Positions 23,226-47,611 of a stretch of DNA of 64,000 bases are shown piece by piece. The translations under genes were made by a program, and so were the position numbers. Position 1 is the stretch's first letter; each line of letters begins with the position of its first letter. Source of the DNA: Roseibacillus persicicus (GTDB lineage: Bacteria; Verrucomicrobiota; Verrucomicrobiia; Verrucomicrobiales; Akkermansiaceae); assembly GCF_014651675.1 (NCBI RefSeq), contig NZ_BMXI01000007.1, positions 186,001-250,000 of the forward strand, given 5' to 3'. The notes beneath the pieces were generated by a model, which saw nothing but the letters and a program-made list of their open reading frames with translations, ran no database searches and was not told the origin of the DNA.

Positions 23226-23246
23226 AGTCTGATGGGGGTGCTGGGT

Positions 23247-25000: not shown

Positions 25001-27187
25001 CTAGCGCAGGAACGCCTCGTGGAGACCGCCGTCGACGCTGATGATTTGGCCGGTGGTTTTTGACAGCTTGTCACTGGCCAGGAGGTAAGCGGCTTCGGCT
25101 TGGTCGGCGGGGGTGATGGGGGCTTTTGTCAAAGTGCGCTGAGCGTAGAATTCAGCGAGCTTGTTCCGCAGGCTCTCGGTGTCCTCGGATTCGTCATGAG
25201 CGATATCGTATTTGGTGAGTGACGCGATCACGCGGTCGCGGGGGAACATGGCGGAACCCTTGACCACGGTGGCGGGAGCGAGTCCGTTCACCCTAACGAG
25301 GGGAGAAAGCTCAACCGCCAGCTCGCGCACCAGGTGATTGGCGGCTGCCTTCGAGCAATCGTATGCGACACTCCCTTTCTTTGCCACCACGGCATTAACC
25401 GAGGTCGTGAGAACGAGAGAACCGGAGAGGTTCTGCTTCTTCCAGATTTTCTCTGCTTCTTGAGCCACAATGTAGAGCCCTTTGACATTGATGTCGAAGC
25501 TCAGGCTAAACTGATCGTCGGTGACCTGGCCTTCTTTGGAAGGGGGGACGAAGATGCCGGCGGTAACGATGACGGTATCGATGCCACCATAGGCGAGCAC
25601 TACTTGCTCGAACATTGCCTTCACGTTTTCGCGGTCAGTCATGTTGGCGGAAAGGCCGATGGCGGGACCGCAACCAGAGATGCCAGAACCGGCGACTCCG
25701 ATGCCTTGCCCGTAAATGTCGGTGAGTTCCTTCGCGGTCTCTTCGGCTGCGTCCAGCTTGAGGTCTACACAGACGACATGCGCTCGTTCCTGGGCCATGC
25801 GGTGGGCCACTTCTCTGCCGATGCCGCTTCCTGCTCCCACCACAACCACGACCTTGCGCTCGAACTCCTTTTCGGGAGGCATGCGCTGGAGCTTGGCTTC
25901 TTCCAAAGCCCAATACTCAATGTCGAAAGCTTCTTGCATGGGGAGTGCATCGTAGGTGCTGATGGCCTCTGCTCCGCGCATGACCTCGACGGCGCAGTTG
26001 TAGAACTCGGCAGTTACGCGGCTTTCGGACTTGTTTTTGCCGAAGGCGACCATCCCGATTCCCGGGATAAGAATGACGGTGGGGTTCTGGTCTCGCATCG
26101 CGGGACTGCCGGGACGCTTGTGGGTCTCGTAGTAATCCGCGTAGTCGGAACGATACTTTTCGAGACCGGTGGTGAGCTTTTCCTTGAGCGCGGCCGCGTC
26201 TTCGGTCTGGGGATTCCAGTCCACAAAGAGAGGCTTGATTTTGGTGCGCAAGAAGTGGTCCGGGCAACTGGTACCAAGCTCGGCGAGGCGGGCAGCATCG
26301 TTGCTATTGACGAAGCGTTGAATGGTTTCGTCGGTTTGGATGGTGCCGATGAATCGTTTGTTCTGGCTGACCTGCCCGCGCAACCAGGGTAGAACGTCGA
26401 TGAGGGTTGCTTCCAAATCCTCCTGCGAAAGAGGACTGTATTTTTGACCGCCAAAGGTTTGTTCGCCTTTGTCGTGGTCCTCGATGTAGCGGGCGGCTTT
26501 TTCGATGAGTTCGAGCGAGAGTTCGTAGCATTCCTTGTCGTCGTCGGACCAGTTGATGAGGCCATGTTGGCCCATGATGAGTCCTTTGAGATTGGGGTTG
26601 GCGAGGGCTTCTTCGCGCATCACGAGGCCGAGGTCAAAGCCAGGACGCTGCCAGCCGACATAGCCCACTTCTCCACCATAGATTTTTTGAGTCAACTCGA
26701 CTTGATCCTTACACGCCGCAACCGCGATCGCGGCGTTGGGGTGGGTGTGGTCGACATGCTTGTAGGGGATGAACCCGTGGAGCGGGGTATCGATGGAAGA
26801 GGCCCGGGGGTTGAGGTTGAAGGTGACATGGTTATACATGCCCACCATCGCATCTTCGATTTCAGTCTTCACTCCCTTTTCCGGAGCACGATTGTAGACG
26901 TCGATGAGCGACATGAGCTTGTCCATGTAGAGGGAAGAAAAGTTCTCGCGCTTGGAGGTCCGAAGGTCACCACCCGAACCTTTCACCCACATGACCTCGA
27001 CCTGCTCGCCGGAGATGGGGTCGATTTCAAGCGCTTTTGAAGAGGTGTTTCCACCGCCAGTATTGGTGACGCGCCCGTCGTCACCGAGAATGTTGGAGCG
27101 ATAAGTCAGGCGATCTGCGGCATCGAGATTTTCGACATCAGCATCATTCCAGCGGTATTCGACGTGTTTGAATTCTTCAGGTTTCAC
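25001..27187 (-). CDS. Bifunctional rhamnulose-1-phosphate aldolase / L-lactaldehyde dehydrogenase
   Basis: About 728 residues if the GTG at 27187 is the start (MKPEEFKHVEYRWNDAD). The ATG at 27262 would put the coding sequence over the operator region. Residues about 1-420 are a class II aldolase domain; zinc-binding His are in KHVDHTHPNA (144, 147, 149) and MGQHGL (208). Residues about 440-728 are a short-chain dehydrogenase with GAGSGIG (451-457) and the catalytic Y609-xxx-K613 in VAYDCSKAA. The aldolase splits L-rhamnulose-1-phosphate to DHAP and L-lactaldehyde, and the dehydrogenase oxidises lactaldehyde to L-lactate. Such fusions are known from rhamnose clusters of several phyla. It is divergent from the DeoR regulator. 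Confidence 0.9.
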   Translation of the reverse strand: MKPEEFKHVEYRWNDADVENLDAADRLTYRSNILGDDGRVTNTGGGNTSSKALEIDPISGEQVEVMWVKGSGGDLRTSKRENFSSLYMDKLMSLIDVYNRAPEKGVKTEIEDAMVGMYNHVTFNLNPRASSIDTPLHGFIPYKHVDHTHPNAAIAVAACKDQVELTQKIYGGEVGYVGWQRPGFDLGLVMREEALANPNLKGLIMGQHGLINWSDDDKECYELSLELIEKAARYIEDHDKGEQTFGGQKYSPLSQEDLEATLIDVLPWLRGQVSQNKRFIGTIQTDETIQRFVNSNDAARLAELGTSCPDHFLRTKIKPLFVDWNPQTEDAAALKEKLTTGLEKYRSDYADYYETHKRPGSPAMRDQNPTVILIPGIGMVAFGKNKSESRVTAEFYNCAVEVMRGAEAISTYDALPMQEAFDIEYWALEEAKLQRMPPEKEFERKVVVVVGAGSGIGREVAHRMAQERAHVVCVDLKLDAAEETAKELTDIYGQGIGVAGSGISGCGPAIGLSANMTDRENVKAMFEQVVLAYGGIDTVIVTAGIFVPPSKEGQVTDDQFSLSFDINVKGLYIVAQEAEKIWKKQNLSGSLVLTTSVNAVVAKKGSVAYDCSKAAANHLVRELAVELSPLVRVNGLAPATVVKGSAMFPRDRVIASLTKYDIAHDESEDTESLRNKLAEFYAQRTLTKAPITPADQAEAAYLLASDKLSKTTGQIISVDGGLHEAFLR

Positions 27188-27195
27188 AATCTTTT

Positions 27196-27236
27196 TTCGT
27201 TGACGAAACGGTTCTTGTCCCAGAAAAGTCAACGAA
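27196..27236. promoter_or_regulatory. Divergent operator region of the rha genes
   Basis: A perfect 9-bp inverted repeat TTCGTTGAC/GTCAACGAA (27196-27204 and 27228-27236) lies between the aldolase GTG (27187) and the DeoR ATG (27275). Inside it, 27204-27218 reads CGAAACGGTTCTTGT, a copy of the 15-nt motif seen before rhaA. The inverted repeat suits a dimeric DeoR-type repressor acting on both directions; the inner motif suits the LacI-type regulator. Binding is inferred. Confidence 0.55.
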
Positions 27237-27274
27237 GCAAGCGAAAACCCACAAATTCCCACAACCCTGATTTT

Positions 27275-28039
27275 ATGTTAGCGGCAGAGCGCCAAAGCCA
27301 CATTCTACTGCGTAGTCAAGCGTTGGGGGTGGTAAGGACCCGTGTCTTGGCGAAAGAATTGGGGGTGGTAGAAGAAACGATTCGCAGAGACTTGGACAAG
27401 CTTGCGGAGTTGGGTGCTTTGGTCAGAGTTCATGGCGGAGCAGCTGTCAACGATTTCGGGCACCGCGATCTGGCCTACGAAGAACGTGAGGTGAGCCAGC
27501 AGAAAGAAAAGGTCGCGATAGCCAGATGCGCGGCTCAAGCGATCAAGGTGGGTGAGACGATCTTATTCGACGCGAGTTCGACCTGCCTTCAAATGGCGAA
27601 GTTGATCCCTCCAAATCTGAGAGTTCGAGTGGTCACCTACTCACTCCCGATCTTTGAAATTTTCAAAGACCGTAAACAGGTGGACCTTGTTCTCTTGGGG
27701 GGTGATTATGAGTCGAGAGGGCGGCGTTTCGGTGGTCCTTTGACCGAGGAAGGGCTTTTGAGTTGTCGAATCGACCGCTTTTTTTTCTCCGCCAAAGGGT
27801 TCGATACAACCAAGGGGGCGAGTGAGGCTAATGAAGAGCAGGCACGCTTGAAAACGGTGGGATTGATTCGGTCTTCATGGGGCGCATTGCTGGTGGACGG
27901 GACCAAGCTGGGAAGCGACTCCAGCTATCATTTTGCGCAAACTCATGAATTGAGCGCGGTCTTCACCGACGAATTGGGGGGGGAGTATTTCGAGCGCGCC
28001 CCACTGAGAGAAAGCCGGAAGGTCACGATTGCAGATTAA
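27275..28039 (+). CDS. DeoR-family transcriptional regulator of rhamnose genes
   Basis: A 254-residue regulator from ATG 27275 (MLAAERQSHILLRSQ); the longer frame would run through the divergent promoter. Residues 1-57 are the DeoR winged helix (VRTRVLAKELGVVEETIRRDLDKL, ALVRVHGGA). The rest is the DeoRC sugar-phosphate sensor with DASSTCLQMAKLI, GGDYESRGRRFGG and the effector-site region KGFDTTKGASEANEEQARLK. DeoR-type regulators of rhamnose catabolism are known in rhizobia. Here the inducer could be rhamnulose-1-phosphate or DHAP. It is the first gene of a plus-strand operon with rhaB, the lactate enzyme and rhaM. Confidence 0.93.
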   Translation: MLAAERQSHILLRSQALGVVRTRVLAKELGVVEETIRRDLDKLAELGALVRVHGGAAVNDFGHRDLAYEEREVSQQKEKVAIARCAAQAIKVGETILFDASSTCLQMAKLIPPNLRVRVVTYSLPIFEIFKDRKQVDLVLLGGDYESRGRRFGGPLTEEGLLSCRIDRFFFSAKGFDTTKGASEANEEQARLKTVGLIRSSWGALLVDGTKLGSDSSYHFAQTHELSAVFTDELGGEYFERAPLRESRKVTIAD

Positions 28040-28044
28040 AGAAG

Positions 28045-29514
28045 ATGAAGGTGCATTTAGCAGTAGATTTGGGGGCAGGTTCCGGCCGGGTTTTGGCAGG
28101 AAAGGTGAGGGAGGGAAAAGTGGAGTTGGAGGAGCTTCATCGCTTTGAAAATCCGGGGACGAGCCTTCCGAGTGGGTTGCATTGGAACATTTTGGGGCTG
28201 TATCGTGAAATTCTGAAGGGGATTGCCACCGGAGTGGAACGCTATGGCAAGATCGAGTCTCTTGGAATCGACACTTGGGGGGTGGACTATGGATTGTTGG
28301 ACAAGGACGGCCGCCTCTTGGGGTTGCCGCAACAGTACCGCGACCCGCGCACGCAAGGCTTTGAAGCGCGAGCCGACGAGTTGGTGGGGAATGATGCTCT
28401 CTATGATGCTACAGGCATCATGCCGTTTTTTCTCAATACCTCGGTCCAGTTGCTCGCGGAGAAAGAGCTGACTCCGGATGCCTTGAATGTGGCTTCCCAA
28501 ATTTTGTTAATACCGGACTTGTTAGCCTATTGGTTGACTGGGGAATTGGCTGTCGAGCGAACCAATGCTTCGACCACGCAGCTGTTTTCGCCCATTACCA
28601 ATGATTGGGCGTGGGAGATGATTGAGGGACTTTCTTTACCAAAAAATATCTTCGGACGGGTCGTGGAATCGGGGACTCTGTTAGGAAATTTGCGTCCAGA
28701 AGTGGCTGAAGAAGTCGGTGCTACGATTCCCGTCATTGCGACAGCAACCCATGATACCGCTGCGGCAGTGGCGGGTATTCCCGGTGAGGAGTGCTATGCC
28801 TTTCTCTCATCGGGCACTTGGACCATCATTGGCTGTGAATTGATGGAGCCTATCATCACCGCGCGTTCCCGCGAGCTGGGATTTGCCAACGAGCTGGGTG
28901 TGGAAAAGACTGTCCGTTTCCTCAAAAATATCAGCGGTCTTTGGCTCATTCAGGAGTGCAAACGCTCTTGGGCGTCCCATGGAGAGGACATTGACTATGC
29001 CGGCTTGGCTGAGTTGGCTTCTGTTGCGGAGCCATTCATTGCGTTCGTCGATCCCGATGCCGAGGAGTTTGCCAGTCCAGGCAAGATGCCGGAGAAGATT
29101 CAGGCTTTCTGTGACCGAACCGGGCAAAAGGTGCCCTCTACTAAGGGTGAAATTTTGCGAGTAGCAACCGAGAGTATCGCACTCAAGCATCGCCTTCGCT
29201 TTCAACAGCTGCGCGAACTCACGGGCAAGGATCTCAAGCGCGTTCACATGGGAGGCGGAGGGATCAAGAACAGCTTGCTAACCCAGGCGATTGCCGACGC
29301 CTGCGGGGTGCCGGTTTATGCCGGCCCTGTGGAGGCGACTGCTTGCGGGAATTTAATCACGCAAATGGTCGCGACTGGTGACTTGGCGTCGATTGCAGAG
29401 GGGCGCGAGTTGATCCGAAATTCTTTGCCCTTGGAGGTTTACGAGCCTAAGGAGGCTGGGAAGTGGGACGAGGTCGCCAAGCATTTCGAGGCGATTCTAG
29501 TGCTTGTGAAATGA
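28045..29514 (+). CDS. rhaB: L-rhamnulokinase
   Basis: A 489-residue FGGY-family sugar kinase, the usual rhamnulokinase length. The N-terminal phosphate loop is VDLGAGSGRVLAG; the catalytic region is SLGIDTWGVDYGLLD. Then come QQYRDPRT, TNASTTQLFSP and the second nucleotide-binding part with THDTAAAVAGIP, SSGTWTIIG and HMGGGGIKNSLLTQAIADACG. AGPVEATACGN near the C-terminus is shared with RhaB proteins. It phosphorylates L-rhamnulose with ATP to L-rhamnulose-1-phosphate in the cytoplasm. It starts 5 bp after the DeoR gene stop, so the two are co-transcribed. Confidence 0.96.
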   Translation: MKVHLAVDLGAGSGRVLAGKVREGKVELEELHRFENPGTSLPSGLHWNILGLYREILKGIATGVERYGKIESLGIDTWGVDYGLLDKDGRLLGLPQQYRDPRTQGFEARADELVGNDALYDATGIMPFFLNTSVQLLAEKELTPDALNVASQILLIPDLLAYWLTGELAVERTNASTTQLFSPITNDWAWEMIEGLSLPKNIFGRVVESGTLLGNLRPEVAEEVGATIPVIATATHDTAAAVAGIPGEECYAFLSSGTWTIIGCELMEPIITARSRELGFANELGVEKTVRFLKNISGLWLIQECKRSWASHGEDIDYAGLAELASVAEPFIAFVDPDAEEFASPGKMPEKIQAFCDRTGQKVPSTKGEILRVATESIALKHRLRFQQLRELTGKDLKRVHMGGGGIKNSLLTQAIADACGVPVYAGPVEATACGNLITQMVATGDLASIAEGRELIRNSLPLEVYEPKEAGKWDEVAKHFEAILVLVK

Positions 29515-29535: not shown

Positions 29536-30708
29536 ATGAGTGAAGAAATAGATTCCAGATATCCATCGACCGAGCATCTGATGGCGAAGGCCAAGCGCAG
29601 GACACCCGGTTTTGCCTTTGATTATCTTTCCGGTGGCTGCTTTTCAGAGGTGAATCTGGCCCGCAATACGAGTGAGATTCGCGAGGTCCGGTTGCAGCCT
29701 TACTACACCCGGGATTTCGCGGGAGCATCTCAGAAGACGACTTTGTTCGGTGAGGAGTATGATGCGCCCTTCGGAATTGCGCCGGTCGGCCTGCAAGGTT
29801 TGATGTGGCCAAAGTCCTGCGAGATTTTGGCGCAGGCGGCGGCGGATCACAATGTGCCTTTTTGTTTGTCCACCGTAGGGACTGCCGACATCGAGACGGT
29901 GGCGGAGATCACCAAGGGAAAGGCGTGGTTCCAGCTCTATCATCCTGCCGAGGATGAGCTGCGGGATAAGATTTTGGAACGGGCTTGGGCTGCAGGAGTC
30001 AAGACCCTCGTGATTCTCGCGGACACTCCTACTTTTGGATGGAGACCGAAAGAGATTAAGAATGGTTTGTCGATTCCTCCTCGCATGACGCTTAAGAATA
30101 TCTTTCAGATGACGACTCATCCGACGTGGTCATTCGCCCAGCTCGCTGCGGGTGCTCCCGAGTTCAAGACGATGAAGCCCTACATCCCCAAGGGGCTGAA
30201 CATGAAGCATCTCGGGTTGTTCATGAACAAGACCTTTTCCGGTCGACTCACAACCGAAAAGATTGAAGCGCTGCGCGAGCGTTGGAAGGGGAATTTGGTC
30301 GTGAAGGGTATCGTTAATCATGAGGACGCGGACCGGGTTCTAGCTCTGGGTGCGGATGGCTTTATCGTCTCGAATCATGGTGGTCGGCAACTCGATTCGG
30401 GGCCGTCGACTATTTCCTCGCTGCAATCGATTGCAAAGGACTACCGGGATAAGACCACAGTCATGTTTGATAGCGGCTTGCGGGCCGGCCCCGATATTGC
30501 GTCGGCTCTCGCTTGCGGAGCGCACTTCACCTTCCTTGGTCGCACACCCATGTATGGAGTATTGGCGATGGGGGAAAAGGGAGGGAATCATGTTCTAGCC
30601 ATGCTCAAGAGGCAGTTGCAACAGGTGATGGAACAAGTGGCTTGTGAGCGCGTGGAAGACTTTCCAAAGTACTTGTTAGAAACCAAAAGCAGCTGCCAAG
30701 AGTCCTGA
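29536..30708 (+). CDS. FMN-dependent alpha-hydroxy-acid oxidase/dehydrogenase (L-lactate)
   Basis: A 390-residue TIM-barrel flavoprotein of the LldD/glycolate-oxidase family. Seen are FDYLSGG (about 28-34), PFGIAPVGLQGLMWP, the FMN-phosphate region and the active-site VSNHGGRQLDSGPST with catalytic His281 and Arg284; Lys257 in VVKGI fits the flavin N1 contact. It probably oxidises L-lactate, the product of the lactaldehyde dehydrogenase half of the aldolase fusion, to pyruvate. That would finish conversion of the lower half of rhamnose. Electrons would go to quinone or oxygen; the class cannot be told apart here. It lies between rhaB and rhaM in one operon. A related hydroxy acid is also possible as substrate. 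Confidence 0.9.
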   Translation: MSEEIDSRYPSTEHLMAKAKRRTPGFAFDYLSGGCFSEVNLARNTSEIREVRLQPYYTRDFAGASQKTTLFGEEYDAPFGIAPVGLQGLMWPKSCEILAQAAADHNVPFCLSTVGTADIETVAEITKGKAWFQLYHPAEDELRDKILERAWAAGVKTLVILADTPTFGWRPKEIKNGLSIPPRMTLKNIFQMTTHPTWSFAQLAAGAPEFKTMKPYIPKGLNMKHLGLFMNKTFSGRLTTEKIEALRERWKGNLVVKGIVNHEDADRVLALGADGFIVSNHGGRQLDSGPSTISSLQSIAKDYRDKTTVMFDSGLRAGPDIASALACGAHFTFLGRTPMYGVLAMGEKGGNHVLAMLKRQLQQVMEQVACERVEDFPKYLLETKSSCQES

Positions 30709-30726
30709 ATTGAAGTGTGTGAACTG

Positions 30727-31038
30727 ATGAGAAAGGCCTTTGTTATGACGATTCACAAGGGTGCGGGGGCTGAATATGAAAGGCGCCATCGTCCTATCTG
30801 GAAAGAGCTCGAAATGACGCTCAAGGCTCATGGCGTGAGCAATTACTCGATCTTCCTGAACAACGAAACGAGGCAGCTTTTCGGATACGTGGAGATCGAG
30901 TCAGAGAAACGCTGGCAGGAGATTGCCGATACTGAGGTTTGTCAGCGTTGGTGGCAGTTTATGCGAGAGCTGATGCCGACCAACGAAGATGGCAGTCCTG
31001 TCCAGAAGGAGCTGCAAGAAGTCTTCCACCTCGACTAG
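30727..31038 (+). CDS. rhaM: L-rhamnose mutarotase
   Basis: A 103-residue protein, the normal family length, from ATG 30727 (MRKAFVMTIHKGAGAEYERRH); a GTG four codons earlier is less likely. It aligns clearly with E. coli YiiL/RhaM from memory: EYERRHRPIWKELE with the catalytic His, NYSIFL, EIESEKRWQEIADTEVCQRWWQFM and the end SPVQKELQEVFHLD. It interconverts alpha- and beta-L-rhamnose, giving the isomerase its preferred anomer. It is the last gene of the DeoR-rhaB operon. Confidence 0.95.
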   Translation: MRKAFVMTIHKGAGAEYERRHRPIWKELEMTLKAHGVSNYSIFLNNETRQLFGYVEIESEKRWQEIADTEVCQRWWQFMRELMPTNEDGSPVQKELQEVFHLD

Positions 31039-31172: not shown

Positions 31173-33908
31173 TTAGTCTTGGAGATAGCTGCCAGAGAAG
31201 GAGTAGGTGCCGGAGCCTAAAGTCTGGGGAGAAAAGTCGGCAATCGGAAGAGATACGACCGCTTTGGTATTCGGCGGAATCGTGATTGAGGCCTTGAAGG
31301 TGCCGTCTGTGAGGTTCCATGCGGTTGCGACTTTGCCATGTCGGACTTGAGTTGAGACCTTGCAGTGGGTCAGGGTTCCGGCAGGTCGTGGTGCGATGCG
31401 GATCAGGTCATAGCCGGGAGCGAGTTGAGAAATCCCTCCGAGCTCGGCAAACATCCATTCCGAGACTGCACCGAAGGCATAGTGGGAAAAGGAGTTCATG
31501 CCGGGCTCGTGGACTCCTTCGTCTTTGATGAAGGAGTTCCAGCGTTCCCAGATGGTTGTCGCGCCATTTTCCACTTCGTAGCCCCAGCTGGGATACTCGG
31601 TCTGCTGCATCAGGATGCCAGCAAGGTCGTGATGACCGTGGGAGGAGAGAACGGGCAGTAGCGGGCGAGTTCCGAGAAAGCCGGTCTGCATCTTATTGCC
31701 GTTATCCCGAATCAGTTTGGCGAGATTATTCGCCGCGTTTTGCTTCAACCCGTCGGGAATGAGACCAAAGTAAAGGGCCATTGCATACTTCGACTGGTTC
31801 GCTTCAGTAAGGGAGCCGTCCGGTTGAACATGGAGTTTGGCAAAGGAGGCGGAAAGAGCCCTATGACGGTCCCGATAGTATTTGGCCCGCTCCGTTTTTC
31901 CCAAGGCCATCGCCATCTCGGACATCAGTTGGGAGGTGTGGGCGTGATAGGCGAGGTCGATGAATTCAACCGGGGTCTTGGGCTGATAGAGAGCGAGCCA
32001 ATCACCGAATCCGCTGTCTCCGACTTTGGTGCCGACGTTTTGCGGATCGCGTTCTTTCCGGAAAGTCATAAACTTTTCCATCTGTTCCCAGTGTTCTTCG
32101 AGCACGGTAGTATCTCCGTAGACTTGCCAGAAATGCCAGGGACAGATGATGCCGGCATCTCCCCAAGCGGCGGCAAAGTTCATCCCCTTACGGATAAATG
32201 GTGAAGGGGCGAAGTTCGGGTAGGGGCCAAAGTCCCACTGGTCATCATTGAGATCACGCAGCCACTTGGTGGTGAAGCTGGCAATATCGGCATTGTAGGT
32301 CGCGGCCTTGATGTAGACTTGGGCGTCGCCGGTCCATCCCATACGCTCGTCTCGCTGGGGGCAGTCGGTTGGAATCTCAAAGTAGTTGGCACGTTGGGTC
32401 CAAACGATGTTCGAGTGAATCTGATTGAGGATGGGGTCGGAGGATTCGAACTCGCTGATCAGGGGGGTGTCCGAGTGGATAACGACTCCGGTGATATCAT
32501 CAAGGGTTGGAGTGCCAGGGTATCCGGTGACTTCGACATACTGAAAGCCGTGAAACGTGAAGTCGGGAAGATATATTTCTCCTTCGGGATCGCCTTTGAG
32601 AATGTAGGTGTCAATGGCACGCGCGCAGCGGAGGTTCTCGGTGGACATGCGGCCATCGTTATGAAGGATTTCGGCAAAGCGGAGGGTGACCCGGTCGCCT
32701 GCCTTTCCCTTGACCTTTAGCTTGGCGAGACCAGAGATGTTTTGACCGAGGTTAAAGATGAACACGCCCGGTTTGTGCTCCGTGACAGAGACAGGCTTGA
32801 TTTCTTCGATAGCGCGAAGAGGGACACCGGGATGGGGCTCGAGTTTACCTTTGTGACCTTCGTCGAGGATCGCATTCTTCCAAGCGGAGTCATCGAATCC
32901 AGGAGATGACCAGCCATCCTGTTCGAGCCTGGCATCGTAGGTTTCTCCCATCAGGGTGTCAGCCTCGGTGTGGGGCGCGAAAGCGGTTTTCCAAGAAGGG
33001 TCGGTTCCAATGACCTTGGTGGAACCATCGGAATATTGAAGCTCCAGCTGAAGGCGGAGCGCGGGATATTTGCCGTAGTAGGAGCGGCCCGGTCGGGAGG
33101 GGTCGAGTCCGGCTACGTTTACGAACAACCCGTAGGCAACATATCCCGCATACCATCCGTCGGCTATGGTAGCGCCGAGGGTGTTCCCGCCTTCTTGAAT
33201 CCTCTCGGTGACGTCGTAGGTGAGATAGTGGAGGCGATTGTGGTAGCTCGTCCAACCGGGAGCGAGATTCCAATCTCCGATGCGTTTTCCGTTGAGCTCA
33301 ATGGTGTTGACCCCCAGCGAGGTGGCATAGAGAAGAGCTCTAACAGGATTGTTCGCTTCGAAGTCTTTGCGGAAGTGCTTGGCTGGAGTGAGGTGGAGTT
33401 TGCCCTTCGGAGTGCCCTTGAAGTTTTGGACGTTTTCTTCGGTTTCGTGAATGGGATTCTCGGGCGAGGCAATCCATTTGGCTGACCAGTCCGATCCGTT
33501 CAACAGGCCAATCGTGAAGGTGGCAGGAGAGGACCACTCCGAGGGGGAGCCGTCCTGGTCCCAGCAACGAACACGCCAAACGGCTGAGGAACGGGGGCTC
33601 AGAGGCACCCCAGCATAGGTGATTTGATGAGTGCTAGTCGAGGTGACCTTGCCAGTGCTCCAGAGATTTGGTTCGTCGAGTTGTTCTTTGTTGGAGGCAA
33701 CCTGAATTTCGTAGGCTGTCTGATGAAGATCTTTCCCTGCGGGCTTGGTGGCCTCGAGTTGCCATGAAAGACGCGGTTTGGTTGTTCCAAGAGCAATAGG
33801 GGATTCCTGATACTCCACCTGCAGATTTGAAGGGGCAAGAGTTTGCGCCCAGGAATGGGGCGCTAACATCAGGAGAAGTGAGTAGAAAGGAAGACGGATG
33901 AAATTCAT
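31173..33908 (-). CDS. Secreted alpha-L-rhamnosidase (GH78)
   Basis: A 911-residue GH78 enzyme with a signal peptide (MNFIRLPFYSLLLMLAPHSWA). Order: an N-terminal fibronectin-like domain (25-135), carbohydrate-binding beta-sandwich domains with GWYAGYVAYGLF and the family's NGKRIGDW, then the (alpha/alpha)6 barrel. The signature TDCPQRDERMGWTGDAQ places the general acid at about Glu521. ATTIWERWNSF is the conserved block with the second catalytic Glu, and a C-terminal beta-domain follows. It releases terminal alpha-L-rhamnose outside the cytoplasm. It lies 113 bp after the aldo/keto-reductase gene on the same strand and is convergent with rhaM. Its upstream region holds only a degenerate version of the operator motif (near 33914-33945). 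Confidence 0.95.
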   Translation of the reverse strand: MNFIRLPFYSLLLMLAPHSWAQTLAPSNLQVEYQESPIALGTTKPRLSWQLEATKPAGKDLHQTAYEIQVASNKEQLDEPNLWSTGKVTSTSTHQITYAGVPLSPRSSAVWRVRCWDQDGSPSEWSSPATFTIGLLNGSDWSAKWIASPENPIHETEENVQNFKGTPKGKLHLTPAKHFRKDFEANNPVRALLYATSLGVNTIELNGKRIGDWNLAPGWTSYHNRLHYLTYDVTERIQEGGNTLGATIADGWYAGYVAYGLFVNVAGLDPSRPGRSYYGKYPALRLQLELQYSDGSTKVIGTDPSWKTAFAPHTEADTLMGETYDARLEQDGWSSPGFDDSAWKNAILDEGHKGKLEPHPGVPLRAIEEIKPVSVTEHKPGVFIFNLGQNISGLAKLKVKGKAGDRVTLRFAEILHNDGRMSTENLRCARAIDTYILKGDPEGEIYLPDFTFHGFQYVEVTGYPGTPTLDDITGVVIHSDTPLISEFESSDPILNQIHSNIVWTQRANYFEIPTDCPQRDERMGWTGDAQVYIKAATYNADIASFTTKWLRDLNDDQWDFGPYPNFAPSPFIRKGMNFAAAWGDAGIICPWHFWQVYGDTTVLEEHWEQMEKFMTFRKERDPQNVGTKVGDSGFGDWLALYQPKTPVEFIDLAYHAHTSQLMSEMAMALGKTERAKYYRDRHRALSASFAKLHVQPDGSLTEANQSKYAMALYFGLIPDGLKQNAANNLAKLIRDNGNKMQTGFLGTRPLLPVLSSHGHHDLAGILMQQTEYPSWGYEVENGATTIWERWNSFIKDEGVHEPGMNSFSHYAFGAVSEWMFAELGGISQLAPGYDLIRIAPRPAGTLTHCKVSTQVRHGKVATAWNLTDGTFKASITIPPNTKAVVSLPIADFSPQTLGSGTYSFSGSYLQD

Positions 33909-34021: not shown

Positions 34022-35029
34022 CTAGGATTTGTAGTGCTCCAATGCGCGATGATAGAGAGACTCGGTCTTGGTGAGGAGTGTCTCTTGAGCTGTTTGGTTC
34101 AGGGACTTGAAGGAGGTCAGAGCTTTCACGTTTTCCTCCAGCTGAGAAATGCTTTCGCATCCCGAGCAGAGCGAGGTGATGGGCAACGAGTAGACGAAAT
34201 GGTGCATGTCTTCGACTGATATCCCCGAATTCGTGAGGGAGAGATTCAACTCCCTGAGTTGCTGCTCCTGAGGACCATTGCCGAAGAAGCTCCCAAAGCC
34301 CATGGTCTTCATAGCAAAGACCCCGTAGTCGCGTTTCTTCAGCTCGGGAAGAACGTGAGTGATGAAGGAGTCGTAGTGGGGATCAACGAGGCTCATGGGC
34401 ATGAGGCAGGTGTCCAGTTCGATGCCCAGTTCGTGAAGTCGTTTGAGAAAGTGGAGGTGGGTCTTGTAAGATGAATGCCCGGTGAATCCCAAGTGGCGGA
34501 CTTTTCCTTCGTCCCGGGCCTTCAGGAAGGCGTCGAGAACCCCTGCATTGATCCGTTCGTCTACGTCTTGAATGGTGGTGATGGCGTGGATGTTCCAGAG
34601 ATCGAGGTGATCGGTCTTCATCCATCGCAGGGAGTTTTCCAATTGCTCGCGAACCGCCTTCCCTGTCTTCTGGGAGGATTTGGAAGTGAGGTAGATGTAG
34701 TCGCGATATCGAGGAGTCAGATACTTGCCGTAGAGCTTCTCGGAAGCTCCGTCGCCGTAGTCCCGCGCGTTGTCGAAGGTTCGCACCCCGAGCTCAATGG
34801 CGCGGTCAATGAGCGCTTCCTGTTGGTGTGCGGGAGCTTTCCAGGCATGGAAACCCCCTAGGGTAAATTGCGTAATCCGCTGGTCCAAGCGACCGAGTTT
34901 ACGTGTGGGGAGGGTCTTGCCGATTTTGTCTGTCGAGGGCTGTGCAAGGAGGTTTCTGGCCGAAGCGAGACCCGCCAGGGCGACCAGGAATTCACGCCGT
35001 TTTGGAAATGGGCGGGAAGATTCAGGCAT
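34022..35029 (-). CDS. Aldo/keto reductase with Tat-like signal
   Basis: About 335 residues from ATG 35029. The N-terminus MPESSRPFPKRREFLVALAG is a twin-arginine type signal (KRREFLVAL), suggesting export in folded form. The body is an AKR barrel: RKLGRLDQRITQFTLGG, RTFDNARDYGDGASEKLYGKYL with the Asp and Tyr of the tetrad, LTSKSSQ with the Lys, and LDLWNIHAI with the His. The C-terminal part has Cys pairs (SLCSGCES) seen in ferredoxin-like AKRs. Its substrate is unknown; a link to rhamnose or its oligosaccharides is suggested by its place between the permease unit and a rhamnosidase. Confidence 0.85.
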   Translation of the reverse strand: MPESSRPFPKRREFLVALAGLASARNLLAQPSTDKIGKTLPTRKLGRLDQRITQFTLGGFHAWKAPAHQQEALIDRAIELGVRTFDNARDYGDGASEKLYGKYLTPRYRDYIYLTSKSSQKTGKAVREQLENSLRWMKTDHLDLWNIHAITTIQDVDERINAGVLDAFLKARDEGKVRHLGFTGHSSYKTHLHFLKRLHELGIELDTCLMPMSLVDPHYDSFITHVLPELKKRDYGVFAMKTMGFGSFFGNGPQEQQLRELNLSLTNSGISVEDMHHFVYSLPITSLCSGCESISQLEENVKALTSFKSLNQTAQETLLTKTESLYHRALEHYKS

Positions 35030-35043
35030 CACGACGAGTGCTG

Positions 35044-35253
35044 CTAGATTGAAGGGTTGTGCTTTTCCCCCAAATCCTCCTTGGGGGAAGCGAGGCCGAT
35101 CCAAGGAGTGGCTCCGAGATACCAGAAAACCATCCCGACGATCATGAGCGTCTTGCTCAACCCGAGGTCAATGGCTCCAAGGAGAAGGAGGAGCGAAGGT
35201 AGAAGGGTTAAAGCGAGACCCAAAAGAGCGAGGGGTTTGAAGAGCTTGTTCAT
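35044..35253 (-). CDS. Small two-helix membrane protein
   Basis: A 69-residue hydrophobic protein: helix 1 about residues 8-27 (LALLGLALTLLPSLLLLLGA) and helix 2 about 33-52 (KTLMIVGMVFWYLGATPWIG), with a short charged tail (SPKEDLGEKHNPSI). It lies 22 bp after the NCS1 permease gene and 14 bp before the aldo/keto reductase, so it belongs to the rhaA operon. Small proteins of this type often accompany transporters as accessory subunits. I do not recognise a family. Confidence 0.7.
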   Translation of the reverse strand: MNKLFKPLALLGLALTLLPSLLLLLGAIDLGLSKTLMIVGMVFWYLGATPWIGLASPKEDLGEKHNPSI

Positions 35254-35275: not shown

Positions 35276-36661
35276 TTAGGCTACTTTCTTTTGGAGAAGC
35301 TTGCTGAGAACGACATGTAGGATGCCGCAAGCGACCCAACAGGGGAGAATACAGAACCAAGTGGCGATCCCTTGAAACTTGATGAAATAGAGGGCAATTG
35401 CGACGGGGCAAAGCCAGGCGAGTAGAACAATTACGTTGATGGGACTGTTGATGCGTTCGGCGTAAAACTTCTGGAATCCCATTCGTCCCGAAAGGTGCCA
35501 GTCTGCAAAAATGATCGCGCCCATGGGAGCGAGAATTGTTCCATAGAGGCCCACGAACCCAAGGAGTTTCCAAGCAAAGGCGGGGAAGATTCCCGCCACG
35601 GTGGCAAGGATGCCCGCTACTAAAGTCATGGTAGTTCGCTTGGAACCTGGGATCATCGCCTGAAATGCCAGACCCGCGCGGTAGATGGTCGGGTTGGCAG
35701 TGGTCCAGCCGGCTACGATTACACAGATGATCCCTGCGAGCCCTGCCACGTTGGCAGCCATTGGTCCGGGAACGGGGTTGGAATCACCGGTAGCTTTGAT
35801 TTGTGCCGCGAGCATGAAGGCCGCGGCAATCCAGGCCATGTAGTGACCGACAAACATGCCGGCGGTGGTGGCCCAGCCAGCGGAAGCCTTCTTTGCATAG
35901 CGAAAGACGGAAAGGTCCGCCATTCCGATATGCATTGCCGCATTGCAGAACCAGGCGAACAAGAGGACAGACCAAAAGCCCATGGTGGACTTGGCTTCGC
36001 CTCCCTGGGCGGTGATGATGGATTCATTCCAGATAGCATTGAGGCCTTCCCAGTTGGCTGCACCAAGTTGATGGAGGGCGACCAAACCGCAGGAGAGGAA
36101 AACTAGGACCATCCAAGGTGCCGCAACATTGGCGAAGCGAGCAACGGTGTCGTAGCCACGGGCGGCAACTACCGCGATCACCGCTCCGACCAGAAGGGTG
36201 ATCACGACGAAAGCGGCATTGGACGGCAATACGTCCTCGACTCCCGGCATAGGGATATTGAAGGGAATCCCGACCGCAGTGGCGGACACTGTGATCATGG
36301 CCCCGGCAAGGAAGCAGAAGAGAATTCCGTTCGCGAGGTTGTAGAGCTTGACCAGGCCTGAACCAGCAATTTTCTCCAGTTGATAATAGAGAGTCATGCG
36401 TGCTTGAACTGCGATGGGGGCACAGAGAAAGCGCCAGGAAAGAACGGCAAGCAGGTTGCCAATCAGGAGGCCCAGAAAGATGTCCTTCAAGGCCACCCCA
36501 GCCAGGAGGAAGAGGGGCCCAATCATAAATTCGGTTCCTGCCGCATGCTCGCCGGCATACATACCCCAGAATTTTCCATGGCCCTTCCGGGCTCCCTCTG
36601 GGACTGGGCGGCGTTCGAACTCGTCGCCGGGCTGGATGATCTCTTCGCTTGTGTCGCTCAT
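35276..36661 (-). CDS. NCS1-family permease, candidate L-rhamnose transporter
   Basis: A 461-residue integral membrane protein with about 12 predicted helices. The N-terminal GKFWGMYAGEHAAGTEFMIGPLF and the following GLLIGNLLAVLSW fit the nucleobase:cation symporter-1 (NCS1, cytosine/purine permease) fold. NCS1 proteins normally move nucleobases, hydantoins or thiamine. Here the gene is 24 bp after rhaA and in one operon with it, and no other sugar transporter is present in the locus. Uptake of L-rhamnose or a rhamnose derivative is therefore the working guess. The genomic argument is strong; the substrate claim is inference. Confidence 0.8.
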   Translation of the reverse strand: MSDTSEEIIQPGDEFERRPVPEGARKGHGKFWGMYAGEHAAGTEFMIGPLFLLAGVALKDIFLGLLIGNLLAVLSWRFLCAPIAVQARMTLYYQLEKIAGSGLVKLYNLANGILFCFLAGAMITVSATAVGIPFNIPMPGVEDVLPSNAAFVVITLLVGAVIAVVAARGYDTVARFANVAAPWMVLVFLSCGLVALHQLGAANWEGLNAIWNESIITAQGGEAKSTMGFWSVLLFAWFCNAAMHIGMADLSVFRYAKKASAGWATTAGMFVGHYMAWIAAAFMLAAQIKATGDSNPVPGPMAANVAGLAGIICVIVAGWTTANPTIYRAGLAFQAMIPGSKRTTMTLVAGILATVAGIFPAFAWKLLGFVGLYGTILAPMGAIIFADWHLSGRMGFQKFYAERINSPINVIVLLAWLCPVAIALYFIKFQGIATWFCILPCWVACGILHVVLSKLLQKKVA

Positions 36662-36685: not shown

Positions 36686-37957
36686 CTAGGCTGCGGCAAT
36701 TTTGGCAGGCTGGGAAGATTCGCGCTGGGCAAGGACGGTGTTTTCGTAGTCTCTGACTTCATTGAGCCAAGCGTGAGAGCCGGGGACGTTCTGCCGTTCG
36801 CAATATTCTTCCCATACGTCTCCGAAGGGCATCATCTTGAGGTCTTCCATGAGAGCAAGTCGGCCGGTGTAGTCACCCTCGTTTTCCAGATTTTGCAAAG
36901 TTTCGGTCGGTTCGAGAAGAGCGATCAAGAGAGCCTTGATCATTGCGCGGGTGCCGATGGTCCAAGCCGCAACCCGGTTGATAGATGCGTCGAAGAAATC
37001 GAGGCCGATATGTGTTTTATCCAAAAGCCCGCCCCGAACAAGTTCGCGGGCGATATCGAGAAGGAGGTCGTCGAGGACGATGACGTGGTCGCTGTCCCAC
37101 CGGACTCCACGAGAAACATGAAGAAGAATTTCGGGGACATGGAGCGAGACCGAGGAAAGCTTGTCAGCGATGGACTCGGTCGGGTGGAAGTGACCGGCGT
37201 CGAGACAAAGGAGGGTCTGATTTTTTACTGCGTATCCCATGTAGAATTCGTGCGAGCCCACAACATAGGACTCGGAACCGATTCCGAAAAGTTTGCATTC
37301 CACCGCGTCGAGATTGTGCTCCATGGGCTTGGAGAAAAGCTCATCCAGTGCGCTCTCCAATCTTTTGCGGGGAGAGAGACGGTCCGCGGGTAAATCCTTA
37401 TACCCGTCGGGAACCCAGACATTGTTCGCACAATGGCTGTTGAGCGCCTGCCCCATCGCTTCGCCGATTTCGCGGCAACGTTTTCCATGTTCAATCCAGA
37501 AATCGCGGATGCCTTCGTCCCCGCTGGAAAGGGTGAATCCTGAGTCTGCCTTGGGGTGGGCGAAAAACGTGGGGTTGAAGTCGAGACCGTGGTTGTTGGC
37601 TTTGGCCCAGTCGATCCAATTTTGAAAATGGCAGACTTCGTATTCATCACGGTCGACGACCTTGCCTCCAAACTCACCATAAAAGGAATGGAGATTGAGG
37701 CGATGGTTGCCGGGAAGGATGGAATAGACCTTGTCGAGGTCGGAGCGGAGTTCTTCCGGGTTGCGGGCCTTGCCGGGGTGATTGCCGGTGACGGCGATGC
37801 CACCGGAGAGCTCAGTCGAGGTGGTTTCGAAGCCTCCGACATCATCTCCTTGCCAGCAGTGGAGAGAGATGGGGATGGTGGCGAGTTGAGCGAGGGCTGA
37901 TTCTGTATCGACGCCTAGGTCGGCATAGCGCTGTTTGGCGGTTTGGTAGGGCGACAT
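36686..37957 (-). CDS. rhaA: L-rhamnose isomerase
   Basis: A 423-residue protein, the size of E. coli RhaA (about 419) and clearly of the same type: ISLHCWQGDDVGGFE, GGIAVTGNHPGKARN, LDFNPTFFAHPKA, WIPDG-like VWVPDGYKD, ECKLFGIGSESYVVGSHEFY and LCLDAGHFHPTE with metal-binding Glu, Asp and His. The C-terminal VIGTRA-type block appears as AAWTIGTRAMIKALLIALLEPT. It converts L-rhamnose to L-rhamnulose with divalent metals. It is the first gene of a minus-strand operon (isomerase, permease, two-helix protein, aldo/keto reductase, probably rhamnosidase). Two direct repeats of the candidate operator stand 20-55 bp upstream. Confidence 0.97.
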   Translation of the reverse strand: MSPYQTAKQRYADLGVDTESALAQLATIPISLHCWQGDDVGGFETTSTELSGGIAVTGNHPGKARNPEELRSDLDKVYSILPGNHRLNLHSFYGEFGGKVVDRDEYEVCHFQNWIDWAKANNHGLDFNPTFFAHPKADSGFTLSSGDEGIRDFWIEHGKRCREIGEAMGQALNSHCANNVWVPDGYKDLPADRLSPRKRLESALDELFSKPMEHNLDAVECKLFGIGSESYVVGSHEFYMGYAVKNQTLLCLDAGHFHPTESIADKLSSVSLHVPEILLHVSRGVRWDSDHVIVLDDLLLDIARELVRGGLLDKTHIGLDFFDASINRVAAWTIGTRAMIKALLIALLEPTETLQNLENEGDYTGRLALMEDLKMMPFGDVWEEYCERQNVPGSHAWLNEVRDYENTVLAQRESSQPAKIAAA

Positions 37958-38084: not shown

Positions 38085-39134
38085 CTAAGACGCCGCTGGG
38101 CCAATGCTTTCTCGTGCGACGAAGTGGGTCGGAAAGACCACCTGTCGAGGGCCTGAGATGTTGTCCGAGGAGTTTTTGTCCAAGCGTGAAATCAGCATCT
38201 CGATCGCAGTGCGGCAGATTTTCTCATAACGCTGACGGACGGAAGAGAGAGAAACATAGGAGTAGGAGGAGAAGGGCACATCATCGACCCCGACCACTGA
38301 AAGATCCTGGGGGATTTTCAACCCCGCTTCAACCGCTGCCCGCATCCCACCAAAGGCCGAAAGGTCATTCATCGCGATCAAGGCAGTTGGTCTGGGGGAG
38401 ATGTTTTTCTTCAAATACTCCGCGAAGACTTGATAGGCGGAGTCTATGGTCGGTCCACAGTTGAGCATGGTGACATTTCCATCTGGGATTTCAGAATCAT
38501 TCAGAAACTCGCGGACCAGGGTCGTTCGGTCGCCATCGTCCACCCCCTCCGAGATGGCATGCAGGAAGACGAAATGCTGATGGCCTAGCTTGCGCAGTTG
38601 CTTGATGCCTTCTTCCAGACCAAAGGAGAAATCACTGAGAATGGAATCGACGGGCAGGGGAAGGGTTGGAATCCCTGAGCCGAGAGCCACTACCGGATGC
38701 GCGGTTTGAGAGTGTCGCACGAGCTCGTCGCGGTATTTCTCATTATCGCTCAGACAAAGAATCGACCCATCAACACCTATCTCTTTGAGCTCTTCCAGCA
38801 AGCGTTCTTCGCGTGGAATGGATGAGCGGCAGTTTTGAATGAGGAGATCGTAGTTGTGTTCCTCGGCCACGCGCGAAAGTGTTTCGACGAGGGAGGCATA
38901 GAAGGGGTTCGTGAGGTCCTGAACTAAGATTCCGATTGTCTGGTAAGAGCCCGAACGCAGGGCTCGAGCGGCTTTGTTGGGACGATAGTTCAGTTCTTTG
39001 GCTGCCTTGAAAACTCTCTCCTCAGTTTCCTTGGAGGCCCACGAATTAGGGCGTCGGTTGAGGATGGTGGATGCCGTATTGACTGCGACTCCGGCTCGTT
39101 CTGCTACGTCCTTCAGACGAATCTTTTTCTGCAT
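38085..39134 (-). CDS. LacI-family transcriptional regulator
   Basis: A 349-residue regulator. The N-terminal helix-turn-helix is IRLKDVAERAGVAVNTASTILN, and the hinge follows at ELNYRPNKAARALRSG. The remainder is a periplasmic-binding-protein-like sensor (QTIGILVQDLTNPFYASLVETLSRVAEEHNY, DGSILCLSDNEKYRDEL, PTALIAMNDLSAFGGMRAAVEAGL, VVGVDDVPFSSYSYVSLSSV). It lies directly upstream of rhaA on the same strand, with the duplicated 15-mer in between. It is the best candidate to bind that motif; the likely effector is rhamnose, rhamnulose or an oligosaccharide. Two regulators for one pathway (with the DeoR protein) is notable. Confidence 0.93.
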   Translation of the reverse strand: MQKKIRLKDVAERAGVAVNTASTILNRRPNSWASKETEERVFKAAKELNYRPNKAARALRSGSYQTIGILVQDLTNPFYASLVETLSRVAEEHNYDLLIQNCRSSIPREERLLEELKEIGVDGSILCLSDNEKYRDELVRHSQTAHPVVALGSGIPTLPLPVDSILSDFSFGLEEGIKQLRKLGHQHFVFLHAISEGVDDGDRTTLVREFLNDSEIPDGNVTMLNCGPTIDSAYQVFAEYLKKNISPRPTALIAMNDLSAFGGMRAAVEAGLKIPQDLSVVGVDDVPFSSYSYVSLSSVRQRYEKICRTAIEMLISRLDKNSSDNISGPRQVVFPTHFVARESIGPAAS

Positions 39135-41593: not shown

Positions 41594-43471
41594 TTACTTC
41601 TCCAAGGATGAAGTGGTGCGGAATCGAAACCAGCGTGCGCCATCATTGAGCCCTTCAAGAGGCTTCTGATTGATGCGGGCGAATCCGGTGTCTGAGAGAA
41701 GAAAGTAGCTGGTGTCTGGTTGCAGTTTTGGCAAATTGTCAAAGGTGATCGAGAGAGCTCCTTGAGCAGGATGATTGGGTTCCGGGTCAGCAGTCCAGAC
41801 CGGGGTGGTGGGGTCTTGTATTCGATACAGGCGAATGGTTTTTCCTTTTGTATTGGTGAAGTCGAGCGGTTGCTTGAAAGCGAGGGTGAGGGGAGTCTGC
41901 AACGGAACGTCACCTTCGGAACAGAGCGGAACGGAGGTGTCAAAGGGCCAGATCTTGGTGAGGCGATGGTAGCCCCAGCCATGTTTTTCCGTCCGTAAGG
42001 GCGTTTTCCAAGAGGGGGGGATCTTGGTTTTGTTCTCTGCGAAATCGAGCCAGGATTTTGCGAGCTTCGCGAGTTGCTGGGGATTGCTCGATGCGAGGTC
42101 GATTGCTTCGACAGGGTCACGTTTCAGATTATAGAGCGCCCATGGTCCTTCGTTGATGGAGACGATCTTCCAGGGGTAATCCAGATAGCCCCGGCTGGTG
42201 TCGGAGAAAGACCAGAAGACAGGATGTTCGATATCCGCTGAGGGTAGCCTGGAGTCCTCAAAGAGAGGCAATAATGAGCGTCCAATGATTGGGACCTGGG
42301 GTGGGGCTGGCTCGTAGGTTGTTCCCGCCAATTGAAGAAAGGTCGGGTAGAGGTCTGTGATGTGTGCCTGCTGGAAACTGATCAGGCCCGGGTCATGTTT
42401 GAGTCCCTTGGGCCAGCGCATGATGAATGGCACCCGGACGCCCCCCTCGTAGCAACTGGATTTATAAAACCGGAAGGGAGCGCATCGAAGGGAAGCCCAA
42501 CCATTGGAAAGGTATGGAATGGAATTACGCTCCCAAGGGATGACTGAACGGTCGACCTTAATGTGTCCGTTGCCGTAGTCGCCTCCATTGTCGGAAAGAA
42601 AAACCACCAGAGTGTTCTCGCGCAGTCCTTTCTTGTCGAGGTGAGCGAGCAGACGGCCGACATTGGTATCGAGGTTGTCGATCACGGCGGCATAGGCTTG
42701 CATGCGAAAGGCCTCGTGCTCTTGAGTCTCCTTGGGAAGCTCGTGCCAAGGACGCACATCAGGAGTGGGAGGGGAGTTGATGTGGCGCTCGTCTATGAGT
42801 CCAAGCTGACGGAGGCGCTGAAACCGTTTTTCACGAAGTTGGTCCCAGCCTTCATCGAAGCGACCCTCATACTTTTCAACCAGTTCTCTGGAGACATTCA
42901 GGGGTGTGTGGGGAGCGTTGAAGGCAAGGTAGGCGAAGAAGGGCTTACCCTGAGCAGAGGCCACATCAATGGACTCGATAGTGTGGTCGGTGAAGGCATC
43001 GGTGGCGAACCAATCGGCAGGAACTTCTTCTGGTTCGCGCTGGCGAACGATGCTCCCCGAGCCGGTGAAGTTATTGATTTGTCCCCCTAGGAATCCGTAG
43101 AATCGTTGGAACCCGTGGTCGAGCGGGTGCCTTGGCTGGTGCCACTTTCCCGATATGGATGTTGCATAGCCGGCTTCCTCCAGCGCCTTGGAGAGAGGTA
43201 GGGAGCGCTTGTAGTGGTCGGACTGGGTGTGAGTCTGCCCCGTCATTAGCGAAGTGCGCGAGACCACACACATGGGATTGACGCGAAAGTTGGCCAGGCG
43301 AGTGCCTTCGCCGGCAAGTTGATCCAAATGCGGAGTGTCGAACTCAGCACCATAACAGCCGAGGTCCGAGTAGCCCATGTCGTCCGCAACGATGAGGAGA
43401 ATGTTCGGGCGATCCTCGGCGAGAGCATAGTCGGTGAAGGCGAGAAGCAGTGCGCTGAGAAGAAGTCTCAT
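41594..43471 (-). CDS. Secreted sulfatase (S1 family) with CVVSR motif and C-terminal Ig-like domain
   Basis: About 625 residues from ATG 43471 (MRLLLSALLLAFTDYALA, a signal peptide); a TTG-started upstream frame is rejected. The sulfatase domain has NILLIVADDMGYSDLGCYG, then C68-V-V-S-R72 in NPMCVVSRTSLMTGQ and FLSDNGGDYGNGHIKVDR. Again Val replaces the usual Pro. The last 120 residues (from about 515) form a beta-rich domain with AFKQPLDFTNTKGKTIRLYR and FDNLPKLQPDTSYFLL, a Big_5/SbsA Ig-like pattern that may bind carbohydrate. It is 34 bp after another sulfatase and 21 bp before the DUF5722 gene. Confidence 0.92.
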   Translation of the reverse strand: MRLLLSALLLAFTDYALAEDRPNILLIVADDMGYSDLGCYGAEFDTPHLDQLAGEGTRLANFRVNPMCVVSRTSLMTGQTHTQSDHYKRSLPLSKALEEAGYATSISGKWHQPRHPLDHGFQRFYGFLGGQINNFTGSGSIVRQREPEEVPADWFATDAFTDHTIESIDVASAQGKPFFAYLAFNAPHTPLNVSRELVEKYEGRFDEGWDQLREKRFQRLRQLGLIDERHINSPPTPDVRPWHELPKETQEHEAFRMQAYAAVIDNLDTNVGRLLAHLDKKGLRENTLVVFLSDNGGDYGNGHIKVDRSVIPWERNSIPYLSNGWASLRCAPFRFYKSSCYEGGVRVPFIMRWPKGLKHDPGLISFQQAHITDLYPTFLQLAGTTYEPAPPQVPIIGRSLLPLFEDSRLPSADIEHPVFWSFSDTSRGYLDYPWKIVSINEGPWALYNLKRDPVEAIDLASSNPQQLAKLAKSWLDFAENKTKIPPSWKTPLRTEKHGWGYHRLTKIWPFDTSVPLCSEGDVPLQTPLTLAFKQPLDFTNTKGKTIRLYRIQDPTTPVWTADPEPNHPAQGALSITFDNLPKLQPDTSYFLLSDTGFARINQKPLEGLNDGARWFRFRTTSSLEK

Positions 43472-43505
43472 TGATTGAATTCGGACGGAGAAAAATGGGG
43501 GGGTG

Positions 43506-44801: not shown

Positions 44802-44823
44802 TAGGTGTTTGGTGTTGTTCGGT

Positions 44824-47518: not shown

Positions 47519-47611
47519 GGTTGGAGTGTATCGTAAACGGGCAAATATGCTTGTCGCTAGTTTGGGTGACAGTTGTAGCAGCTTTGGAGAGAGGCGGCGA
47601 GGACGAGTTGC

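Follow-up and report, generated by a model that had tools for sequence, protein, structure and literature searches.

The stretch of Roseibacillus persicicus DNA analysed here (the window) is 64,000 nucleotides long. On its minus strand, at 35276..36661, lies a 461-residue ORF which we identify from a structural model and from structure and profile matches as an NCS1-related transporter with 12 predicted transmembrane helices (TM), and which we propose to be a Na+/L-rhamnose symporter. The ORF is present where an earlier note on this DNA had placed it, and its neighbours are as described there. The L-rhamnose isomerase gene rhaA (36686..37957, minus strand; PF06134, 664 bits) ends 24 bp upstream, and a 69-residue ORF encoding a small two-helix membrane protein, a proposed accessory subunit (35044..35253, minus strand; identified by its ORF, an AlphaFold model and a profile), begins 22 bp downstream. 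A LacI-family regulator is encoded upstream of rhaA (38085..39134, minus strand; family match). Downstream, on the same minus strand, are an aldo/keto reductase (34022..35029; the listed ORF extends to 35104, and the ATG at 35029 is the likely start by inspection) and a GH78 alpha-L-rhamnosidase (31173..33908; family match).

The rha locus is larger than the earlier note had it, with a further group of genes at 25.0–31.0 kb. These are rhaEW, encoding a rhamnulose-1-phosphate aldolase/lactaldehyde dehydrogenase (25004..27115, minus strand; TIGR02632, 981 bits, above cut-off), and, on the plus strand, a DeoR-family regulator (27164..28039, with a possible start at 27275 by inspection), a rhaB-like rhamnulokinase of the FGGY family (28045..29514; TIGR02627, 431 bits against a cut-off of 528), an lldD-like FMN-dependent dehydrogenase (29536..30708; family match) and the L-rhamnose mutarotase gene rhaM (30715..31038; family match). 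The window carries the full rhamnose pathway. A crude scan of hydropathy over a greedy set of ORFs found no other polytopic ORF of at least 90 residues with more than one hydrophobic segment between about 20.4 and 64 kb, in agreement with the previous description of the transporter as the only one in the rhamnose locus; a five-segment protein at 17083–18309 is a MacB-type permease. A second rhamnose transporter elsewhere, the alternative raised in the earlier note, was sought in the whole genome. RhaT (PF06379), positive in 2 of 14 control genomes, gave no match, and no rhamnose ABC binding protein RhaS scored above cut-off (one match, 45.8 bits against a cut-off of 342); both candidates were rejected.

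Around the rha genes are four sulfatases, three GH78 rhamnosidases and a DUF5722 protein (21873–24845, 31173–33908, 41594–46617 and 54181–56811), in what looks like a sulfated-rhamnan utilisation island; the GH78 proteins and the sulfatases together suggest that a rhamnose-rich polysaccharide with sulfate groups is used. At 46844–50626 a short response-regulator-like protein lies beside a Reg_prop/Y_Y_Y sensor histidine kinase, a type of kinase that often controls polysaccharide loci.

Structure prediction and family placement were run as a check on the transporter's assignment to the NCS1 family. A model built from an alignment of 62 proteins, comprising the window's transporter and relatives at 38–79% identity, reached a pLDDT of 88.7 and a pTM of 0.86. 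Its best structural match is CodB (PDB 7qoa; VIA Z 36.0, rmsd 3.3 Å, 393 aligned), followed by Mhp1 (2jln, 4d1a; VIA Z 31.1, rmsd 3.4 Å, 401 aligned), with CodB and Mhp1 chains occupying Foldseek ranks 1–5 and VIA ranks 1–3. Other LeuT-fold families scored lower by VIA, with CHT1 at Z 27.5 and SGLT-type sugar symporters at Z 21–22. The latter (vSGLT and SGLT, SSS family) are a parallel in that they move sugar with Na+ on a LeuT fold, but they belong to another family and match the transporter less well. An hhalign comparison with a canonical NCS1 alignment gave a probability of 99.5 and an E value of 2.5e-22 over 402 columns. Pfam returned no match to the transporter even up to E 10, and both the NCS1 model PF02133 (at E 0.001) and the RhaT model PF06379 were negative for it; PF02133 had no match anywhere in the window's genome and was positive in 4 of 14 control genomes. 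In NCBIfam the cytosine permease model matched at 46 bits (E 2.6e-12), under its cut-off of 326.

Because of the structural matches to CodB and Mhp1 and the hhalign profile match, we regard the transporter as a relative of NCS1 with, by its model, a 12-TM LeuT fold. Within the LeuT-fold (APC) superfamily it stands on a divergent branch related to NCS1 and is no canonical NCS1 member. The earlier assignment to NCS1 thus stands as regards NCS1-type fold and profile homology, and falls as regards canonical membership, since the Pfam model misses the protein and the TM3 Trp is replaced. With CodB and Mhp1 the transporter shares the 12-TM LeuT fold, full-length profile homology and retained Na2-site positions. 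It differs from them in showing only 13–18% identity in the VIA rows, in lacking the stacking Trp of TM3 and the Phe of TM1, in having invariant Glu, His and Thr residues at the TM1 break, and in its rhamnose gene context and two-helix partner.

A profile search of the PDB gave no match at E 10, and the mapping of residues therefore rests on the hhalign alignment to Escherichia coli CodB rather than on superposed coordinates. Passages of PMC9379551 describe two aromatic residues of CodB that sandwich the base and are conserved through the whole NCS1 family. CodB Trp108 (TM3) aligns with L118 of the transporter, a position that is Ile in one of the 62 rows and Leu in the other 61, and residues 105–131 contain no Trp at all in 60 of the 62 rows. 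CodB Phe33 (TM1) aligns with A41, which is conserved in 62/62. In TM6 an alignment gap makes the register unsure, and CodB Phe204 falls on A242 or H244 accordingly; W237 is invariant. Invariant polar residues cluster at the helix breaks, namely E38, H39, T43 and E44 in TM1 and N240, H244 and D249 in TM6, where G246 is also invariant. As for sodium, the same passages give the CodB ligands as the main-chain oxygens of Gly29, Phe32 and Asn275 and the hydroxyls of Thr278 and Thr279 (PMC9379551). These align, by alignment and not by superposition, with G37, A40, A317, T320 and T321. Four of the five (G37, A317, T320 and T321) are invariant in 62/62 rows, including both side-chain ligands, T320 and T321; A40 is variable, and its CodB counterpart is a main-chain ligand. 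Judged from the aligned positions, the Na2 sodium site is retained. The residue pattern as a whole is what would be expected of a Na+-coupled LeuT-fold site that had come to bind a polyhydroxy ligand in place of flat aromatic rings. In three relatives (L020, L156 and L157) about 50 extra residues are found near positions 216–224, in the loop before TM6.

We then surveyed the gene context of relatives. A search of a broad contig collection, seeded with the window's own sequence, found 219 relatives, and the best 80 of the 219 come from at least five phyla: Verrucomicrobiota, Planctomycetota, Lentisphaerota, Bacteroidota and Calditrichota. Eight rha markers (seven pathway enzymes and RhaT) were counted at 110 loci, made up of 77 from the broad set (the best 80 of 219 minus three) and 33 from genomes of the window's phylum; this set, which also served for the tree, derives from 116 loci after L049, L051, L097, L147 and L148 were omitted by hand and L157 as an identical row. 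At least one marker is present at 71/110 loci (54/77 in the broad set and 17/33 in the phylum set), and at 58 of the 110 (44/77 and 14/33) a marker lies no more than 600 bp away on the same strand. The 71 marker loci divide into 35 with rhaA, 31 with rhaI and no rhaA, and 5 with lldD or rhaM alone. The commonest same-strand neighbour is rhaA (25/77 and 8/33), which is found at Planctomycete loci and at many verrucomicrobial loci. Loci of Bacteroidota carry an unrelated rhaI-type isomerase (TIGR02629, 494 bits against a cut-off of 647 in the one representative scanned) together with rhaEW and an FGGY kinase with weak rhamnulokinase likeness. On the tree of the 110 loci, made by a quick method with stops written as X in the rows and long branches flagged, the rhaA label changes 12 times and the rhaI label 16 times, so that each association is clustered and not single. 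The adjacency to rhaA noted in the window thus recurs in Verrucomicrobiota and Planctomycetota, and since the neighbouring isomerase may be of either of two unrelated kinds, the association points to the sugar that both have in common.

In a sample of 194 genomes of the window's phylum, rhaA is present in 18/18 genomes with a transporter match above 590 bits versus 118/194 overall (chance 7.5e-5, kinship uncorrected, with the limit set afterwards from a gap seen in the scores). Taking all 21 matching genomes, rhaA is present in 19 (p 0.0035, kinship again uncorrected). Two counts from this sample speak against the rhamnose role. Only 5 of the 18 strong matches have rhaA no more than about 5 kb away (G000, G142, G250, G172 and G226), and the aldolase-dehydrogenase gene rhaEW is found in only 4/18 strong-match genomes versus 23/176 others (p 0.29), so that most of the strong-match genomes must therefore use another aldolase.

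A candidate regulatory element was found among close relatives. The LacI-type palindrome ATGAAACGTTTCAT, allowing up to 2 mismatches, precedes the transporter gene at 5 of the 10 close loci examined (L019, L020, L021, L144 and L145). Each of 996 shuffled palindromes was found at 2 loci at most versus 5 for ATGAAACGTTTCAT, a motif that was drawn from some of the same loci. In the window itself, no site matches the 16-base form when 3 mismatches are allowed; the 14-base form is matched best at 26349, within rhaEW, and at 27203, with 3 mismatches at each. The palindrome is a candidate operator of the local regulon in the window's clade.

The 69-residue protein is predicted by AlphaFold to form two helices, at residues 5–24 and 30–52 (mean pLDDT 83.3, pTM 0.58). 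It matched no named Pfam or NCBIfam family; up to E 10 the Pfam search returned only PF09163, at E 0.093, and NCBIfam returned nothing at 1e-5. By profile, the protein is encoded just downstream of the transporter at 78/110 testable loci, 67 by strict criteria and 11 by reading, the latter being frames, read from stop to stop, whose beginning lies within the 3′ end of the transporter gene. A separate hydropathy count, for which 110 of 116 loci were testable (3 at an edge and 3 duplicates were set aside), found a small two-segment ORF at 66/110 loci versus 5 in the opposite-strand control. At least one of these 66 ORFs (L093) lies outside the small-protein family, and L093 and L043 were omitted from the profile. 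In 27/66 the start of the small gene overlaps the transporter's stop. An alignment of 48 rows contains a single invariant residue, W44.

In the 194-genome phylum sample the small-protein profile gave 18 matches in 17 genomes (E 1e-4), all of them just downstream of a transporter match; the small protein never occurs in a genome that has no transporter match (Fisher 1.7e-23), and G192 is the only one of the 18 strong-match genomes to lack it. Apart from the fused paralogues described below, the profile had no match elsewhere in the loci examined. The earlier observation that a two-helix protein follows the transporter at once therefore extends to a family of pairs that travel together. Among 28 further hand-picked carriers the small protein was present in 12 and absent genome-wide in 16, and of the Bacteroidota carriers tested it was present in 7/21 and absent from 14/21, which argues that it is not always needed.

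In distant paralogues (37–38% identity) the transporter's own C-terminus bears a two-helix extension that matches the small-protein profile, at 23.4 bits in L143 and 18.3 bits in L140; in L139 and L142 such an extension was seen by eye. The four fused transporters lie at about 8.0–9.7 kb of their loci, and sugar-type regulators adjoin them. When 17 of 20 neighbouring proteins were scanned, three of the four fused paralogues were found to adjoin a mannitol-dehydrogenase-type gene and the fourth to adjoin zinc-dependent dehydrogenases; among NCBIfam models the mannitol-dehydrogenase-type neighbours match fructuronate reductase and D-arabinitol dehydrogenase best, in each case below cut-off. The fused paralogues are a possible polyol or uronate branch. 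A 42%-identical copy at L141:8004–9558, which has a long branch and falls close to the fused paralogues, has a separate two-helix gene and a GH78-like neighbour.

From the constant neighbourhood and the fusion in paralogues, we infer that the two-helix protein is a dedicated physical subunit of the transporter. Precedents are the DUF4212, YhdT and YjcH proteins, two-helix small subunits of Na+/solute symporters that are likewise encoded beside the symporter gene; the 69-residue protein differs from them in having no Pfam or NCBIfam match beyond PF09163 at its marginal E value. Structures of human SGLT1 and SGLT2 include, by their entry titles, the partner MAP17, a small membrane protein, and here the likeness is one of analogy only. 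We know of no small accessory subunit of NCS1-type transporters.

Taken together, gene context and binding-site residues suggest that the transporter carries rhamnose, and we think it probable that it is a Na+-coupled L-rhamnose importer of a divergent NCS1-related branch, equipped with a dedicated small subunit. Fold (by model), residue conservation, gene order, recurrence and co-occurrence are observations; the substrate, the coupling to Na+, the mode of binding and the physical association with the small protein we infer. In the mechanism that we propose, rhamnosidases would release L-rhamnose, which the transporter would bind at the broken TM1 and TM6 helices while taking one Na+ at the conserved Na2 site. 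Alternating access would bring the sugar in, the two-helix protein acting as a dedicated accessory subunit, and the mutarotase, isomerase, kinase, aldolase-dehydrogenase and lactate dehydrogenase would then degrade it. According to passages of PMC3870299, known L-rhamnose transporters include RhaT (DMT), RhaFGHJ (ABC) and RhaY (MFS). These serve L-rhamnose uptake in rha operons, the role proposed here, but belong to other protein superfamilies.

The alternative that survives best, though we hold it unlikely for the window's protein, is that the transporter carries a related saccharide, such as a disaccharide that contains rhamnose, rhamnose with methyl or sulfate groups, or a different methyl pentose (L-fucose, for instance), and that branches may differ. 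None of the eight rha markers lies nearby at 39/110 loci, for which reason some copies may indeed carry related saccharides. When 95 of 108 proteins picked from the neighbourhoods of 31 marker-less loci were scanned, the matches listed included at least seven rhamnosidases (six GH78 and one GH106) and at least seven sulfatases, as well as many genes unrelated to these. Three transporter copies (L038, L039 and L040) occur in Pelagicoccus mobilis, each with a small partner and none beside a rha marker. RhaT also coexists with the transporter in about a third of carriers. In the phylum sample it is present in 6/18 strong-match genomes versus 18/176 others (p 0.013). Carriers thus have RhaT more often than other genomes do, rather than having replaced it, and this weighs against the main reading as well; G108, G157 and G209, three of the six, have RhaT beside rhaA and the transporter on another contig. 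Among other carriers RhaT was found in 16/49, including the close relative behind L019, and none was found in 33/49, among them Indibacter alkaliphilus, Mariniradius saccharolyticus and Rhodopirellula sp. SM50, the last of which has the small gene; in L032, L047 and L049 RhaT (by tblastn, among other searches) and the transporter share one gene row. A clean exclusion of RhaT by the transporter was looked for and not found. Against a different saccharide, rhaA and rhaI, both of which recur beside the transporter, use free L-rhamnose, and no other candidate was found to serve the complete rha pathway of the window. Considering the rhamnosidases and sulfatases near marker-less loci and the coexistence with RhaT, rhamnose, or sugars that contain it, are the probable substrates of the branch, some copies of which would have become specialised in another way.

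Export or import of a pathway end product (L-lactate, lactaldehyde or 1,2-propanediol) seems improbable. An lldD-type gene does occur on the same strand no more than 600 bp away at 11/77 broad-set loci, and lldD is the sole marker at three loci, but the gene most often adjoining the transporter on its own strand is that of the first enzyme, rhaA, and polyhydroxy substrates fit better with the mannitol-dehydrogenase-type neighbours of the distant paralogues. A nucleobase, hydantoin or thiamine transporter placed in the operon by chance, to which the nearest fold and profile matches (CodB and Mhp1) and the weak cytosine permease match might point, is hardly credible and was rejected, given the replacement of the stacking Trp in 62/62 rows and the recurrence of rha adjacency across several phyla with two unrelated isomerases.

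For the family at large, a Na+-coupled rhamnose importer would belong to an NCS1-superfamily branch that turned from bases to sugars or their derivatives, working as a two-part Na+ symporter whose subunit is separate in the rhamnose branch, fused in the possible polyol or uronate paralogues and lost in some Bacteroidota. This wider scenario is finely balanced and we advance it tentatively. A literature search of titles and abstract beginnings, not aimed at small subunits, found no report of an NCS1-type rhamnose transporter, and rhamnose is absent from the main text of PMC9007349. The rhamnose role may nevertheless be known already from mutant fitness data. For Echinicola vietnamensis, GapMind reportedly gives an L-rhamnose transporter assigned by fitness data, Echvi_1617, under which name no paper was found; if Echvi_1617 belongs to this family, a role in rhamnose uptake has already been seen by mutant fitness. 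Textbooks know NCS1 proteins as carriers of bases and similar ring compounds, and a sugar-carrying branch, if true, would show how aromatic stacking at a LeuT-fold site gives way to polar binding of a sugar. It would also add a small accessory subunit to NCS1-type transporters, and would supply the rhamnose-uptake step for those carriers in which no RhaT was found.
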